From assembly GCA_015662905.1 (NCBI GenBank), contig DQTE01000080.1, positions 1 through 34,888 on the forward strand: a stretch of 34,888 nt of DNA. Reading direction: 5' to 3'. This DNA comes from Crocinitomix sp. Its GTDB lineage: Bacteria; Bacteroidota; Bacteroidia; Flavobacteriales_D; Crocinitomicaceae. The notes below the pieces were generated by a model that did no database searches, was not told the origin of the DNA, and saw only the letters and a program-made list of their open reading frames with translations. Shown here one piece after another: positions 16,909 to 24,769 of the stretch (position 1 is its first letter; every line of letters starts with the position of its first letter). A program made the translations under genes and the position numbers.

Positions 16909-16914
16909 CTAAAC
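16828..16914. repeat. G-free repeat array A
   Basis: On the plus strand this stretch contains no G and consists of variants of ACTTTCCACTAAA and TCAACTCTCAACTA. Two near-identical units ACTTTCCACTAAA follow each other. The right end (TTCAACTCTTAACTAACC, then AACTTTCACTAAA) overlaps the last codon and stop of the minus-strand T9SS cargo gene and closely matches repeat B at 18839-18882. Confidence 0.6.
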
Positions 16915-18759
16915 TTTTATAAATTGCTTAATAATCTTACGGTCAAGATGATTAATAACAGTTATGGTATAAACGCCAGAATGAAAAGTAGATATATCAA
17001 TTTGATAATTATTTTTATTTTGTAAATTAACACTATAAACCCTTTTGCCAAAGGCATCATAAATTTGAATTTCTTTTATTTGAGTATCAGAATGATGAAT
17101 GTTTAAGATATTACTACAAGGATTAGGATAGAGCAGTAGCTCATTGTTATCAGTTTTATTTTCAACGGCTGAAAAATCGTAAGTTTTTGCAATATAATTT
17201 AATGGTGTCCCCAAGTTTTCTGTAAAATATCCACCTACAAAAAGACTATTTTCAAAAATAGCCATATCTATAACTGTACTATCAAAAAATCCAAAATCTT
17301 TTAATTCATCAGTTATTAAATTGTACTTAATTAAATGCGAAGACACGCCGTTAAACGTAGGGTATATAAAGTTACCTGCAATGAATAATTCAGAATTTGC
17401 ACTGCTACTATTGTATAAGATTTTACTGATATAAACATCTAGTACATTGGAACTATACAGGGTAGAGTATTGTATTAGAGGTAATGTAACACCATTTAGA
17501 TATTGCGTCAAACAAACTTCATTTGTGTTATTGCAACTGCCCCCAAAATATATGCTATTACCTATTACTTGAATTGTTTTAACAGTGTCTGGAATATCGT
17601 TAGATAGTATTTGATTCCAATTAGACGAATAATTCTCTTTCACAATAACATTATTAGTGACAATTGTATCGGTAATTACGTTATTTGAATATACAAAAAC
17701 AGAGTCAAAATGACCAGCATAAATTCTGCCTAAATAAGAGGGTTTTATATCATATATTTCTCCTGATACTTCAGCCACAAGTTGCCAATTAGAGTTTTGA
17801 TAATACCATAATTCTTGTCTATTAGGTTTAGATGAATGATTAAGTGCAATCTCTATATAACCACCATTAAATACTTTTGTTGCCGTAGCGCCTACCCTGT
17901 TAGGCACAGAAACATAATCCCATTGGTTATTAGAAAAAATGGCAAAAGGAAAAGTGTCTTGTACATTTAAAATTGTTCCGTAAGCCATAATATCAAAGTT
18001 TGTATTGTTTGAAATGCCATTTATTTTTCCCGACAATCCATTGCCCAAACAAGAAAATTGATTATTATCATATACCCCAATTTGTAAGCAGGGTAAATTG
18101 TTAATTGAACTAAAATCACCAGCAATAAGCAATTGATTAGTAGCCGGAATACGGTGTACAACTTTAACAGCATTATTAGTACCATCTAGTATTGGCTGAA
18201 AATTATTTTGAGGGTAGGCTGGTTGAATCCATTTCAGTTCTTCAACTAAAAAGCCATAATTAATGCCCCATTCAACTACTCCGTCAGTTGTGATATTTTT
18301 TATGTAGTCATAATTATGCTCTAATTTAATTTGTTGTGCTAATTTTTCGTTTCCAGACTGTTGCATTAAATAACCCACAGCACAATGTACATTTCTATGG
18401 TCAATAAAATATGGTTGTCTGTGGGGGTGATATAAATTTATTGGAAATATCTTGTTTTGAGCATATTCTAACAATGACAGTATTAATTTGTATCGTTCTG
18501 TTTTTTGTTTTTTTGTAAGGTTTTGAGGTGTACTTTTAACCAATTCATTACAAACCAATTTTAAGTGTAAGGCAATTCTTTCTTCATCAGAATCAAAAGC
18601 AATTTCACCTTTAGGACAAGCATTTTTATGATATTTCCATTCCTTATTTATAGTAAGTAAATGATTGTAGTAAGTAGCTTTGGTTTTATAATCTACAGCC
18701 TTTACAGCTATATGATTTGTTATAAACATAAAGCTAAAGAATAAATATAAAGTTTTCAT
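16909..18759 (-). CDS. Secreted T9SS-sorted protein with HCAVGYLM N-terminal region
   Basis: From the ATG at 18759 the protein has 616 residues; a TTG 7 codons upstream would add MQGKLLH ahead of the signal peptide and is less likely. Domains in order: signal peptide (about 1-20); an alpha-helical region with FDSDEERIALHLKLV and the distinctive FIDHRNVHCAVGYLMQQSG block ending in GFLVEELKWIQPAYP, a combination I recall from other Bacteroidota secreted proteins; a beta-rich central part with repeats of the type LLIAGDFSSIN, SIYFGGSCNN, LFIAGNFIYP and LFVGGYFTEN, probably a beta-propeller; and a C-terminal type A T9SS domain (LLYPNPCSNILNI onward). The repeated GG/AG-x-F motif suggests four or more blades. 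The biological role is unknown. The gene is flanked on both sides by related G-free repeats. Confidence 0.8.
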   Translation of the reverse strand: MKTLYLFFSFMFITNHIAVKAVDYKTKATYYNHLLTINKEWKYHKNACPKGEIAFDSDEERIALHLKLVCNELVKSTPQNLTKKQKTERYKLILSLLEYAQNKIFPINLYHPHRQPYFIDHRNVHCAVGYLMQQSGNEKLAQQIKLEHNYDYIKNITTDGVVEWGINYGFLVEELKWIQPAYPQNNFQPILDGTNNAVKVVHRIPATNQLLIAGDFSSINNLPCLQIGVYDNNQFSCLGNGLSGKINGISNNTNFDIMAYGTILNVQDTFPFAIFSNNQWDYVSVPNRVGATATKVFNGGYIEIALNHSSKPNRQELWYYQNSNWQLVAEVSGEIYDIKPSYLGRIYAGHFDSVFVYSNNVITDTIVTNNVIVKENYSSNWNQILSNDIPDTVKTIQVIGNSIYFGGSCNNTNEVCLTQYLNGVTLPLIQYSTLYSSNVLDVYISKILYNSSSANSELFIAGNFIYPTFNGVSSHLIKYNLITDELKDFGFFDSTVIDMAIFENSLFVGGYFTENLGTPLNYIAKTYDFSAVENKTDNNELLLYPNPCSNILNIHHSDTQIKEIQIYDAFGKRVYSVNLQNKNNYQIDISTFHSGVYTITVINHLDRKIIKQFIKV

Positions 18760-18838
18760 ATGTAGTAGTTTTCCTTGCAAGTTACAAAAAAAAAATGAAT
18801 AATAGGATTTAAGGTGTTACTTCATACAAACAATTTTT

Positions 18839-21340: not shown

Positions 21341-22348
21341 ATGGATTATAAAGATATCATTAAGCAAATCAAAAAAAGAGAGTTTAAACCTATTTATTTT
21401 TTAAATGGAGAAGAGCCTTTTTATATTGATAGAATTGTTGATTTTATAGCCAACAATGTGCTTGATGAATCAGAAAGAGATTTTAATCAAACAGTATTGT
21501 ACGCCAAAGATAGTCCACCAATAAGTGTAGTAGATGCAGCAAGCCGTTTGCCAATGATGTCCGATTACCAAGTGGTTATTGTTAAGGAGGCTCAAGAATA
21601 CAAAACTGCAAGTCAGTGGGAAGTGTTTGAAAACTATTTTGAATCGCCCTCTAAACAAACCATTTTAGTATTTGCCTACAAGTATAAAAAGTTTGATAAA
21701 CGTTCTAAAATCTATAAAATTTTAAAGAAAAAAGCCGTTATTTTTGAATCTGCTGGCGTTAAAGATTATCAATTAGATAAATGGATTAAAGATTATCTAA
21801 AAGATAAAAAATATCAAATAACTGATAAAGCAACAGCCTTATTGGCAGAATTTGTTGGTAATGATTTAAGTAGGTTAGCAAATGAGTTAGATAAACTATT
21901 TATTTTAGTTCCAAAGGAACAACAAATTACAGAAAAACATATTGAAGAAAATATTGGCATAAGTAAAGATTACAATGTGTTTGAGTTAGTTAATGCCGTT
22001 ATGGAAAAAGACAGCCTTAAAGCATTAAAAATTGTAAACTATTTTGAAAAAAATCCAAAAGCTACACATATTACAATTGTTTTAGCAAATCTGCTAACCC
22101 TATACCAAAGGTTATTTAAAGCTCATTTCTTAAAAACAGATAATCCAGCTCAAGTAGCCTCTTTGTTAAAAATAGCTCCTTACCCTGCAAGGTTAATTGT
22201 TTCTAACAAAAGAAAACATCCCCCAAAAATTATTTCACGTAACTTTTCTTATTTACGAGAATATGATTTATTAGCTAAAGGTGTAGGCAGTGCAGGAACA
22301 GATCAAGTTCAATTGATGAAGGAGTTAATTTTTAAGATTTTACACTAA
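21341..22348 (+). CDS. holA: DNA polymerase III subunit delta
   Basis: HolA is the clamp-loader delta subunit that opens the beta clamp during replication. The 335-residue protein has the family's N-terminus (PIYFLNGEEPFYIDRIVDFI, about 18-37), the RDFNQTVLYAKD and RLPMMSDYQVVIVKEAQ segments, the DLSRLANELDKL helix in the middle, and a helical collar domain at the end (about 210-335). It lacks a Walker A motif, as expected for delta. It is the third gene of the era operon. No U-rich terminator is seen directly after its stop, only a T-rich run that overlaps the next promoter element. Confidence 0.92.
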   Translation: MDYKDIIKQIKKREFKPIYFLNGEEPFYIDRIVDFIANNVLDESERDFNQTVLYAKDSPPISVVDAASRLPMMSDYQVVIVKEAQEYKTASQWEVFENYFESPSKQTILVFAYKYKKFDKRSKIYKILKKKAVIFESAGVKDYQLDKWIKDYLKDKKYQITDKATALLAEFVGNDLSRLANELDKLFILVPKEQQITEKHIEENIGISKDYNVFELVNAVMEKDSLKALKIVNYFEKNPKATHITIVLANLLTLYQRLFKAHFLKTDNPAQVASLLKIAPYPARLIVSNKRKHPPKIISRNFSYLREYDLLAKGVGSAGTDQVQLMKELIFKILH

Positions 22349-22365
22349 TAAAATCTTCCTTTTTT

Positions 22366-22373
22366 TATCTTTG
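22366..22373 (+). promoter_or_regulatory. Candidate -7 element for the 56-codon gene
   Basis: TATCTTTG is a perfect TAnnTTTG 18 nt after the holA stop. The predicted start near 22379 leaves a leader of about 110 nt before the ATG at 22492. Confidence 0.5.
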
Positions 22374-22419
22374 TAAAAGATAACCTAATAGCTAAAAAAT
22401 GTTAAATTGTCTAAAAAAA

Positions 22420-22488
22420 GTTAGTTTGTGTAAGCTAAGTTACACTTTTTATTGTTTTATTGTGTTATTATTGTACAAACAAACTAAC
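22420..22488 (+). promoter_or_regulatory. Structured 5' leader of the 56-codon gene
   Basis: GTTAGTTTG (22420-22428) is perfectly complementary to CAAACTAAC (22480-22488), which ends 3 nt before the ATG. Inside lies a second hairpin, GTGTAA/TTACAC (22428-22433 and 22440-22445). The long stem would place the start codon at its foot. It does not match a riboswitch class that I recognise. Confidence 0.5.
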
Positions 22489-22491
22489 ATT

Positions 22492-22662
22492 ATGGCTAGA
22501 AAAAAAACAAAAGAGAAAGTAGAAAAAATCATAAATGAGATTAAAAATTCTACGCCTAAATTTAAGCTACAATTGGATAGTAAGACTATAATTACACTTA
22601 AAACAGAAGAACAACTTGAAAAGTGGATGTCACTTTATCCCAAAGCTAAATTAATTTCATAA
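22492..22662 (+). CDS. 56-residue basic protein of unknown function
   Basis: From ATG 22492 the product is MARKKTKEKVEKIINEIKNS... ending PKAKLIS: a lysine-rich amphipathic helix (about 4-20) followed by a short beta/helix part (FKLQLDSKTIITLKTEEQLEKWMSLYP). A longer frame from 22399 exists, but its added residues are hydrophobic and cysteine-rich and coincide with the structured leader, so I prefer the internal ATG. Composition suggests a soluble, possibly nucleic-acid-binding protein; I do not recognise the family. It has its own candidate promoter and a strong terminator. Confidence 0.65.
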   Translation: MARKKTKEKVEKIINEIKNSTPKFKLQLDSKTIITLKTEEQLEKWMSLYPKAKLIS

Positions 22663-22685
22663 TAGTATTATTGAAACAAAAATAC

Positions 22686-22715
22686 AAGCCGTTTGTAACT
22701 ACAAACGGCTTTTTT
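22686..22715 (+). terminator. Rho-independent terminator after the 56-codon gene
   Basis: AAGCCGTTTGT (22686-22696) pairs with ACAAACGGCTT (22701-22711) around a 4-nt loop, then a T tract. Confidence 0.85.
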
Positions 22716-22814
22716 GATTTTTAATCTATAAGTTGGCTAATGCTTTTTTCAATAAATTCAAAGTAACCAATGTTTTAAAATTCCGTATTTAAAAAATATA
22801 TAAAATATAGGTGC

Positions 22815-24335
22815 TTGAAATTAAATTTATTAATACTACTTGCTTTTTTTTACGGTGTAAGTTGGGTAAAAGCCCAAACCATTGTAAAAGTACATGAAAT
22901 TAGAGGAAGCATAGCACCCAAATCCATTGTTAGTAGTTCAACAGGGTTATTTGCTGCCCAAAATATGATGTACAAACATACCGTTACCATTTACAACTCA
23001 TCAGGTGAATTATTGGCTACCATAAAAGATAATGTAAACTTAAAAGTGTATGGATATTCAGATTATAATGATGACACTTATCTTGGTGGACCTGTAGAAG
23101 CTTGTTTTAGTAATAAAGGAAAATTTTTATGGGTGTCTAATTATAGTATGATAGGAACAGAATTTATCAATGAAGGTTGTGATGCTTGTATGGGTAGCAT
23201 TTATGACCCAAGTTTTGTTTATAAAATAAATACAACAACTTTTAAAATTGAAAATGTCATTAAAGTAGGTTCAGTACCAAAATATTTAGCCATTAATGAA
23301 TTGATAGATATAATGGTAGTTTCAAATTGGACAAGTTCTGATGTTTCTATTATTGATTTAAGAACAGAAAAAGAAATTAAAAGGATAAAAGTAGGAAAAC
23401 ATCCAAGAGGTATTGTCATAACTAAAAATGGGCAATTTGCTTATGTTACTATTATGGGGAGTACAAAAATTGCAGTTATAAATCTTGAAACAAATCAGGT
23501 AAATTATATATATAATGTCGGTAAATCTCCTAGGCATTTAGTGTTAGATGAAAAAGAAGATTTTTTATATTGTTCAACCAATTCTGACAATCAATTGGTT
23601 AAAATAAATTTAAAAACTAAAAACATCATTAAATGCAAAACAAAAGCGGGACCTAGAACTATGATACTATCCGCTAATGATAAATATATTTATGTCGTGA
23701 ATTATTTTTCTGATTCATTTCAAAAAATTGATGTAGAAACCATGCAAGTTATAGAAACCATAAAAACAGGACATCACCCAATAGGGATAACGATAAACAA
23801 ACAAACTTCAGAGATATGGGTATCTTGTTATGAAGGTAAGATACAAATATTTAAAGATATAGAATTAGAACAACAACTGCAAAATTCAGAACTGTTAGCA
23901 GATGTTAAGCAAACTAAAATTAAACATATACCCACCTATGATGCTCAAAAATATTTAACCCATAAAAAACAAAAAAACACTGTGCAAAAAAAACAGTCAG
24001 CACATAAAAAATCATCAACAAATCAATCAGACAGTAAAATAGAAAATATATCAACTTCAAAAAATACAATAGCAAAAAACACCAATAATAACACTAATTC
24101 TAATTGTAAATATCACCTAATTATAGGCAGTTTTGGAGTTAAGTCAAACGCAGAACGATTAAAACAAAAAATGATAGAAAAAGGTTATCCTGCTCAACTT
24201 TTGCCATCATCTAATCAAAAGTTAACAATGGTTTCTATTCAATGTTTTGATACTCAGAATGAAGCGTTAAGTTCAAAATCAAAAATATTGCAAGATACAC
24301 AACAAAAAGGGTGGGTGTATGCAGTTGACAAATAA
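22815..24335 (+). CDS. Secreted YVTN beta-propeller protein with C-terminal SPOR domain
   Basis: A 506-residue exported protein starting at TTG, with a signal peptide (about 1-20, ending WVKA before QT). Residues about 25-360 are a YncE/YVTN-type propeller: repeats such as VPKYLAIN, HPRGIVITKNGQFAYVT, SPRHLVLDEKEDFLYCS, GPRTMILSANDKYIYVV and HHPIGITINKQTSEIWVS mark the blades. One blade carries a loop with NEGCDACMG, a CxxC pair. A lysine/serine/asparagine-rich linker (about 385-430) leads to a SPOR domain (about 433-506, HLIIGSFGVKSNAERLKQ), a fold that binds peptidoglycan stripped of peptide stems. It is therefore probably periplasmic and attached to the cell wall. Its partner or ligand is unknown. 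No catalytic residues are evident, and no clear promoter is seen in the 100 nt upstream. Confidence 0.8.
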   Translation: MKLNLLILLAFFYGVSWVKAQTIVKVHEIRGSIAPKSIVSSSTGLFAAQNMMYKHTVTIYNSSGELLATIKDNVNLKVYGYSDYNDDTYLGGPVEACFSNKGKFLWVSNYSMIGTEFINEGCDACMGSIYDPSFVYKINTTTFKIENVIKVGSVPKYLAINELIDIMVVSNWTSSDVSIIDLRTEKEIKRIKVGKHPRGIVITKNGQFAYVTIMGSTKIAVINLETNQVNYIYNVGKSPRHLVLDEKEDFLYCSTNSDNQLVKINLKTKNIIKCKTKAGPRTMILSANDKYIYVVNYFSDSFQKIDVETMQVIETIKTGHHPIGITINKQTSEIWVSCYEGKIQIFKDIELEQQLQNSELLADVKQTKIKHIPTYDAQKYLTHKKQKNTVQKKQSAHKKSSTNQSDSKIENISTSKNTIAKNTNNNTNSNCKYHLIIGSFGVKSNAERLKQKMIEKGYPAQLLPSSNQKLTMVSIQCFDTQNEALSSKSKILQDTQQKGWVYAVDK

Positions 24336-24352
24336 AAAAAAGTCAAAAACCA

Positions 24353-24769
24353 TTAGTTTTGCTCACAAACTTCTTTTAACTTATTTGCCATATAATTAAA
24401 CAAATTAGTTAAAGGTTTAACAACCATCATTTTTAAAAAAGCATTGATTTCGCCCTCAAAATTTAAAAAGGCCTCTGTAGTATTATCATCAATTGTATTG
24501 AAAGTAACCACCAAGGTAAAAGGAAATGGTGTTTTGTCACCAGAAATAATATTGATTTGTGAGTGGGGTGTACTATCTTTTTTTACAAGGGGGATAACAG
24601 CAGCATTTTGAATTTTAAAAGAACATTGATTCTCATCAGATTGCCAATCACTTATTTTGTCTTGTGGTAATAATTGAATGATGTGATTAAAATCATTCAT
24701 AAAATTAAAAACAAATTCTGCTGATTTGTTAATAATTACTCGGTTACTTTCTATTTTTGTTGATGCCAT
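24353..24769 (-). CDS. START/SRPBCC-like protein
   Basis: From the ATG at 24769 the product has 138 residues and reads as a small SRPBCC-fold protein: KIESNRVIINKSAEFVFNFMNDF at the start, a central beta sheet (FTLVVTFNTIDDNTTEAFLNFEGEIN), and a long C-terminal helix MMVVKPLTNLFNYMANKLKEV closing the hydrophobic cavity, as in polyketide-cyclase/CoxG-like proteins. No ligand can be inferred. A TTG 6 codons upstream would overlap the pyrE end; the ATG lies 5 nt after the pyrE stop, so the two are probably co-transcribed. Confidence 0.8.
   Translation of the reverse strand: MASTKIESNRVIINKSAEFVFNFMNDFNHIIQLLPQDKISDWQSDENQCSFKIQNAAVIPLVKKDSTPHSQINIISGDKTPFPFTLVVTFNTIDDNTTEAFLNFEGEINAFLKMMVVKPLTNLFNYMANKLKEVCEQN

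Follow-up and report, generated by a model that had tools for sequence, protein, structure and literature searches.

The leptospiral antigen Lp49 (PDB 3bws) and the archaeal YVTN surface-layer propeller 1l0q are the nearest solved relatives of the propeller analyzed here, the former by structure and the latter by sequence. Unlike the protein described below, Lp49 carries a second domain that is presumably Ig-like, and 1l0q has PKD domains attached according to its entry title, not SPOR. In mycobacteria, the seven-bladed propeller MSMEG_5308 is found at poles and septa and stabilizes the MmpL3/TtfA complex, as given in passages of PMC6593404. The SPOR domain has been characterized in RlpA, where, according to passages of PMC6895207, Q270 and a basic patch recognize the exposed lactyl carboxylates and the main chain supplies many of the remaining contacts; FtsN and DamX have counterparts of this glycan-contacting Gln, the basic patch can also be formed from different residues, and a beta-4 Trp (W416) is important in DamX. 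Literature searches, covering mostly papers available without subscription, retrieved no description of a YVTN and a SPOR domain in one protein, and in the retrieved passages naming a SPOR domain together with a beta-propeller, the terms concerned different proteins. Both domains are known, their combination is a new architecture, and the family is apparently undescribed; the first-pass annotation likewise had no named system for the architecture.

The window, a stretch of 34,888 nucleotides of Crocinitomix sp. contig DQTE01000080.1, encodes a 506-residue protein on its + strand (22815..24335, TTG start to stop; all features of the gene given below are on this strand). Alignment of homologs to the protein begins at its hydrophobic N-terminus, which by eye continues into VKA-Q, and residues 1 to 21 (22815..22877) form a probable signal peptide, by eye and hydropathy, without a lipobox, from which the protein is probably exported. 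A seven-bladed YVTN propeller follows (residues 23 to 348; 22881..23858), for which the Lactonase-type seven-bladed propeller PF10282 (9.2e-14, 51.8 bits against a cut-off of 21.7), YNCE (5.7e-11), and the NCBIfam YVTN repeat TIGR02276 (9.6e-25, 86.3 bits against 27.85) all scored above their cut-offs. An AlphaFold model built from 23 rows (mean pLDDT 82) contained 28 propeller strands in seven four-stranded blades and a beta-alpha-beta-beta-alpha-beta C-terminal domain. The two are joined by a flexible linker (residues 352 to 430; 23868..24104; K14, N11, Q9, S9, T9 of 79 residues) that is disordered by its pLDDT, below 50 over residues 360 to 428, and the C-terminal SPOR domain (residues 432 to 502; 24108..24320) matched PF05036 at 4e-7 (30.7 bits against 21). 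The succession of signal peptide, propeller with CxxC loop, Lys/Ser/Asn-rich linker, and SPOR domain read from the sequence in the first-pass annotation is therefore borne out by Pfam, NCBIfam, and AlphaFold, with the signal peptide still a probable one; the SPOR assignment held both against the Pfam model and in fold matches to CwlC, DedD, and RlpA, and the architecture recurred in the survey of the window's order described below.

Homologs were gathered by searching named genomes with sequence patterns (23 loci), by a family search (100 genomes including the window's own), and by an order search (299 genomes), the latter two made without the AQNMMYKH pattern considered below. The family search gave 15 strong matches at E 1.6e-120 or better, in the window's genome and in 14 of the other 99, and since all 14 of these other-genome homologs matched SPOR, the architecture is not due to chance. 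In the order search, 34 of 299 matched at 4.9e-113 or better, separated by a clear gap from the next four (6e-47 to 3e-44). At 1e-60, and with at most five candidates scored per genome, the phylum search returned only the window's own genome among 395, and the genus search covered that genome only. Kin are called Bacteroidota or Flavobacteriales from the titles of records carrying copies of the same genes. A SPOR profile, itself built from the SPOR domains of nine of these members, matched 36 of the 38 distinct members from the window's order, window included, at E 0.01 or better; in the remaining two, the frame leaves the end of the stretch (L082) or holds an unknown residue (L090). Several members have two SPOR domains in tandem, one has a stop inside its frame (L092), and in L084 a long charged spacer, probably a coiled coil, lies ahead of a SPOR domain truncated where the locus ends, with a weak score (4e-3).

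Residue conservation was counted mainly over 53 non-redundant aligned rows, window included, which are related by descent and so do not amount to 53 independent observations. Left out were a fragment (L023), the locus with the internal stop (L092), six copies of included loci (L069 to L074), and the repeats L068, L091, and L093 to L097; the order-search hit G567 was not part of the set. Wherever a letter was aligned, 38 propeller positions were invariant. One repeated blade position, just past the D-A loop, is invariant in all seven blades, its charged residues in blades 1 to 6 forming the ring: K36 in blade 1 (22920..22922; 52/52 rows with a letter), E95 of the invariant PVE in blade 2, the acidic member, beside V94 (23097..23099), K156 in blade 3 (23280..23282), R198 of PRG in blade 4 (23406..23408), R240 of PRH in blade 5 (23532..23534), R281 in blade 6, within PRT here and PRS in most rows (23655..23657), and I323 in blade 7, with E95 and the four basic residues after it each counted in 53/53. 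The signature AQNMMYKH of blade 1 (residues 48 to 55; 22956..22979) holds Q49, M51, Y53, and H55, again in 53/53 rows, and Y110, D123, Y136, N171, W172, W335, and Y339 are likewise invariant. Because the pattern search included AQNMMYKH, the invariance of that motif is partly built in and inflated, but the ring residues belonged to no search pattern and their invariance is free of this bias. Seven rows from the family and order searches (L082, L085 to L090) deviate from AQNMMY[KR]H and still keep Q49, M51, Y53, and H55.

Conservation was concentrated on one side of the propeller. Assigning faces from the strand order of the model rather than from coordinates, 44 of the 59 near-invariant positions (at least 35 of 37 rows) fell on the top (B-C/D-A) face, 13 in the middle, and 2 on the bottom face, against 152, 46, and 128 positions available (Fisher p 2.5e-11, top vs. 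bottom). The strongest conservation in the family is found on the charged propeller face, not in the cysteine loop or the wall anchor, and this pattern suits a ligand-binding role more than that of a broad scaffold. Together, the invariant ring and one-sided conservation point to an anion-binding, possibly catalytic, cup on the modeled propeller. Lp49, the best structural match (Z 38.0, rmsd 2.8, 305 residues aligned; Foldseek E 3.2e-20), shares a Lys at the K156 site and SNW, PRG, and RH in aligned blades, but is only about 20% identical, has Asn at the R281 site, and matches neither the profile of the first two blades of this family nor the SPOR profile. The closest solved structure by sequence, 1l0q (3e-52 with the family profile), differs in having M, Q, L, and K at four aligned ring sites, so that only one is basic. 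Other structural neighbors of the propeller included the hydrazine synthase beta subunit (Z 36.6), and since many WDR5 rows score about the same (around 36), the match reflects a common fold, not function. A profile specific to blades 1 and 2 of the family found nothing in the PDB (best E 0.087).

The propeller was also found without SPOR. Four genomes from another genus of the family encode a sister group of proteins of about 405 residues (L105:1833-3053, − strand, L106, L107, and L108), putative lipoproteins with lipobox-like starts by eye, that have no SPOR, CxxC, or AQNMMYKH. Aligned with the family, they retain K36, PVE95, K156, SNW, PRG198, MG, PRH240, PR281, W335, and Y339, and lose Q49, Y53, H55, and D123. 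As the basic ring is kept in this group and is largely missing in 1l0q, it can occur where no SPOR is fused and is not common to YVTN repeats at large. Eleven rows titled as Actinomycetota groups (L011 to L021) stop 0 to 7 residues past the aligned propeller, also without SPOR, and the 10 of these with a start (all except L020) have hydrophobic or lipobox-like N-termini. In the tree, the Actinomycetota rows form one branch (support 99) with L024 next to it (94), nested in a larger set that includes Bacteroidota rows (95), which suggests that these copies arose by transfer and loss of SPOR, given a root that rests on a long branch. Judged from these alignments, the anchor is exchangeable and the propeller is most likely the conserved working head. 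Within the same branch, a gene on a contig titled Bifidobacterium breve (CAMBEL010000115.1) is almost identical to an Acidimicrobiia one titled Baikal-deep (L013 and L014; end branches 0.02 and 0), and the Bifidobacterium record is probably mislabeled or contaminated.

The explanation we favor, at somewhat less than an even chance, is an exported, SPOR-held propeller whose invariant basic cup binds an anionic envelope ligand. After export, the C-terminal SPOR domain would hold the protein at peptidoglycan, with a disordered linker of some 75 residues in between. The propeller would be the working part, with its B-C and D-A loop face predicted to form a cup, its lining made up of E95, the five basic ring residues, and invariant side chains of His, Gln, Asp, Trp, and Tyr, in which a carboxylate- or phosphate-bearing ligand of the envelope may bind. 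The CDAC loop would be a disulfide clip over the cup, and the anchor, whether SPOR, membrane, or lipid, would do no more than hold the propeller close to wall or membrane. Should the cup have a defined ligand in the wall or envelope, the protein would work as a sacculus-bound sensor, scavenger, or enzyme.

The main rival makes the cup an active site, that of a Vgb- or lactonase-like hydrolase or lyase with an anionic substrate in the envelope, and has the anchor position the enzyme. Invariance of H55, E95, D123, Y110, Y136, and Q49 in 53/53 rows is of a catalytic kind, and the homolog L018 matched Vgb_lyase at E 1.2e-10, though at 41.1 bits this was under the cut-off of 50. The sister group, however, keeps the ring and E95 and, in the alignment, lacks the four residues listed above, so the full catalytic set is not common to these propellers. 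Of the enzyme models listed for the window protein, none but the broad Lactonase propeller one reached its cut-off: virginiamycin B lyase (PF24684) scored 16.4 of 50 bits (E 0.0042), and the NCBIfam equivalogs listed were all far under theirs, among them YncE (53.5 of 400 bits), L-NosZ (77.7 of 700), and hydrazine synthase beta (79.7 of 560). We regard an enzyme as unlikely, and as less probable than plain ligand binding by the cup.

The SPOR domain, modeled alone (pLDDT 88), adopted a beta-alpha-beta-beta-alpha-beta RNP-like fold with the CwlC SPOR domain and DedD as its first two Foldseek matches. VIA-align placed an exported Burkholderia protein first (6ozd, Z 10.4), with DedD at 8.8, CwlC at 8.7, RlpA SPOR at 8.3, and DamX at 5.4; FtsN, at 4.2, stood among unrelated rows scoring up to 4.7. 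The fold is clearly like those of CwlC, DedD, and RlpA and weakly like those of DamX and FtsN, and the domain differs from all of these in the replacement of the glycan-site Gln and in its fusion to a propeller. In an alignment of 41 rows, with one SPOR copy only aligned for tandem members, the RlpA Q270 site is I436 in the window protein and holds Gln in no row, mostly Ile or Val instead. The F274 site (F440) is Phe in 38 rows and the C-terminal Trp (W500) is Trp in 37. Sites judged equivalent to R309 and R311 of the RlpA patch (R302, R309, R311) are M472 and S474, with Arg in a single row each, though such a patch, as noted above, may be formed from different residues. With the RlpA-type Gln missing, septal targeting by this SPOR domain cannot be assumed, and with the beta-3 arginines missing as well by alignment, even tethering to the wall is something we infer; binding of wall glycan is plausible. 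A match of the SPOR profile to designed PPR proteins (6e-11) was the sum of many weak helical repeats and was discarded.

These results bear on the proposal in the first-pass annotation that SPOR directs the protein to septal, denuded glycan, with the propeller as a scaffold at division sites, and support it only in part. The targeting part has in its favor a genuine SPOR fold and the kept Phe and C-terminal Trp, and is weakened by the glycan-contacting Gln being found in 0/41 rows. In favor of a scaffold, denuded glycan could be made by two SPOR-bearing Amidase_3 proteins that the same genome encodes (L100, L104), and MSMEG_5308 offers a precedent as an envelope propeller stabilizing a transport complex at poles and septa, in the passages of PMC6593404 cited above. 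MSMEG_5308/Rv1057 resembles the window protein in being an envelope-associated propeller with seven blades, but is no close relative, as NF048007, the model for that stabilizer, scored 37.1 bits against a cut-off of 600. Retention of the propeller without SPOR in the 11 Actinomycetota rows and the sister group, together with conservation concentrated on one strongly basic face, where His, Glu, Asp, Trp, and Tyr residues are invariant, speaks against the scaffold, and we consider this role quite improbable.

Seven SPOR places were found in the window's own genome. By eye, L099, one of the domains of L102, and both amidases have the Gln, which is missing from the window protein and from L101 (HU-CCDC81) and L103 (PorP/SprF). 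The latter two also end in AW by eye, and differ from the window protein in their other partner domains. That three proteins of one genome do without the denuded-glycan Gln while two amidases keep it poses a question on the SPOR domains of Bacteroidota. L103 (346-1746, + strand) is a PorP/SprF type IX secretion membrane protein (PF11751, 6.7e-51) whose C-terminal SPOR match is barely above its cut-off (21.3 of 21 bits), and a role as wall anchor of the secretion or gliding machinery is possible. A literature search on this combination found nothing on the subject, judged by title. L101 (520-1710, + strand) combines an HU-CCDC81_bac_2 domain, a hydrophobic stretch by eye, and a SPOR domain ending in AWILK like the window-type SPOR, and may be an FtsN-like analog in its group.

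Cys122 and Cys125 of the CDAC loop (NEGCDACMG; 23178..23189) lie in the long B-C loop of blade 2, which by strand order belongs to the conserved face. The loop, which the first-pass annotation listed as part of the architecture, does not serve as the diagnostic feature of the family. Cys125 was accompanied by Cys122 in 41 of the 53 rows and by Cys173 in 10, the remaining 2 having none of the three, and no row had one alone. The simplest reading, which we regard as suggestive, is that Cys125 forms a structural disulfide with either partner; the tree requires only three changes and gives one to two independent pairs, so the pairing test has little power and offers no statistical proof. A thiol-redox or metal-carrying protein, to which the presence of Cys125 in 51/53 rows and the position of the loop on the conserved face would lend themselves, is highly improbable, as the switching of its partner suits a structural disulfide, albeit over those one to two pairs only. 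A possible disulfide within SPOR (Cys431/Cys477) was set aside: of 38 rows with letters at both positions, 12 had both cysteines, 1 had Cys477 only, and 25 had neither, and the tree gives only one to four independent pairs.

Taken as a single proposition, and more tentatively than the ligand-binding cup itself, these envelope propellers may make up an undescribed family found in Flavobacteriales and carried over to Actinomycetota, marked by an invariant cup of its own for anion binding or catalysis. Its head would have been re-tethered by membrane helices, by lipid, or by SPOR, the last singly or in duplicate and in one case after a long, charged spacer that is probably a coiled coil. Its SPOR would belong to a Bacteroidota class that recognizes the wall without the conserved Gln.

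The genomic setting of the gene was also scrutinized. A terminator-like hairpin of 11 pairs followed by a T-run (22686..22711, +) lies upstream and probably ends the preceding transcription unit; the pattern scan found four such sites in 22300-24600 against 0.8 expected, by itself no evidence of function. Given this hairpin and a convergent downstream ORF, the propeller-SPOR gene is probably its own transcription unit. By eye, the ORFs upstream resemble era, der, and holA, and one downstream resembles pyrE. Predicted neighbors were clustered over 38 sources including the window, with flanks of up to 6 kb per side for pattern-search loci and stretches of up to 20 kb in all from the other set. 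None of the window's neighbors clustered with a gene from the 37 other sources, in a clustering that missed the propeller cluster itself in L012, L017, and L023. Neighborhood was rejected as a clue to function, the clusters being only local blocks common to relatives and no neighbor indicating a ligand. Just before the hairpin, a small ORF (22399-22662, +; 87 residues) had no Pfam match at 0.001 and, read from an inner Met, gives a lysine-rich peptide of 56 residues. Elsewhere in the window (16909-18780, −), a second propeller protein with a TTG start is Rax2-like (6e-11) and carries a type IX secretion sorting tail (Por_Secre_tail, 2.9e-14).
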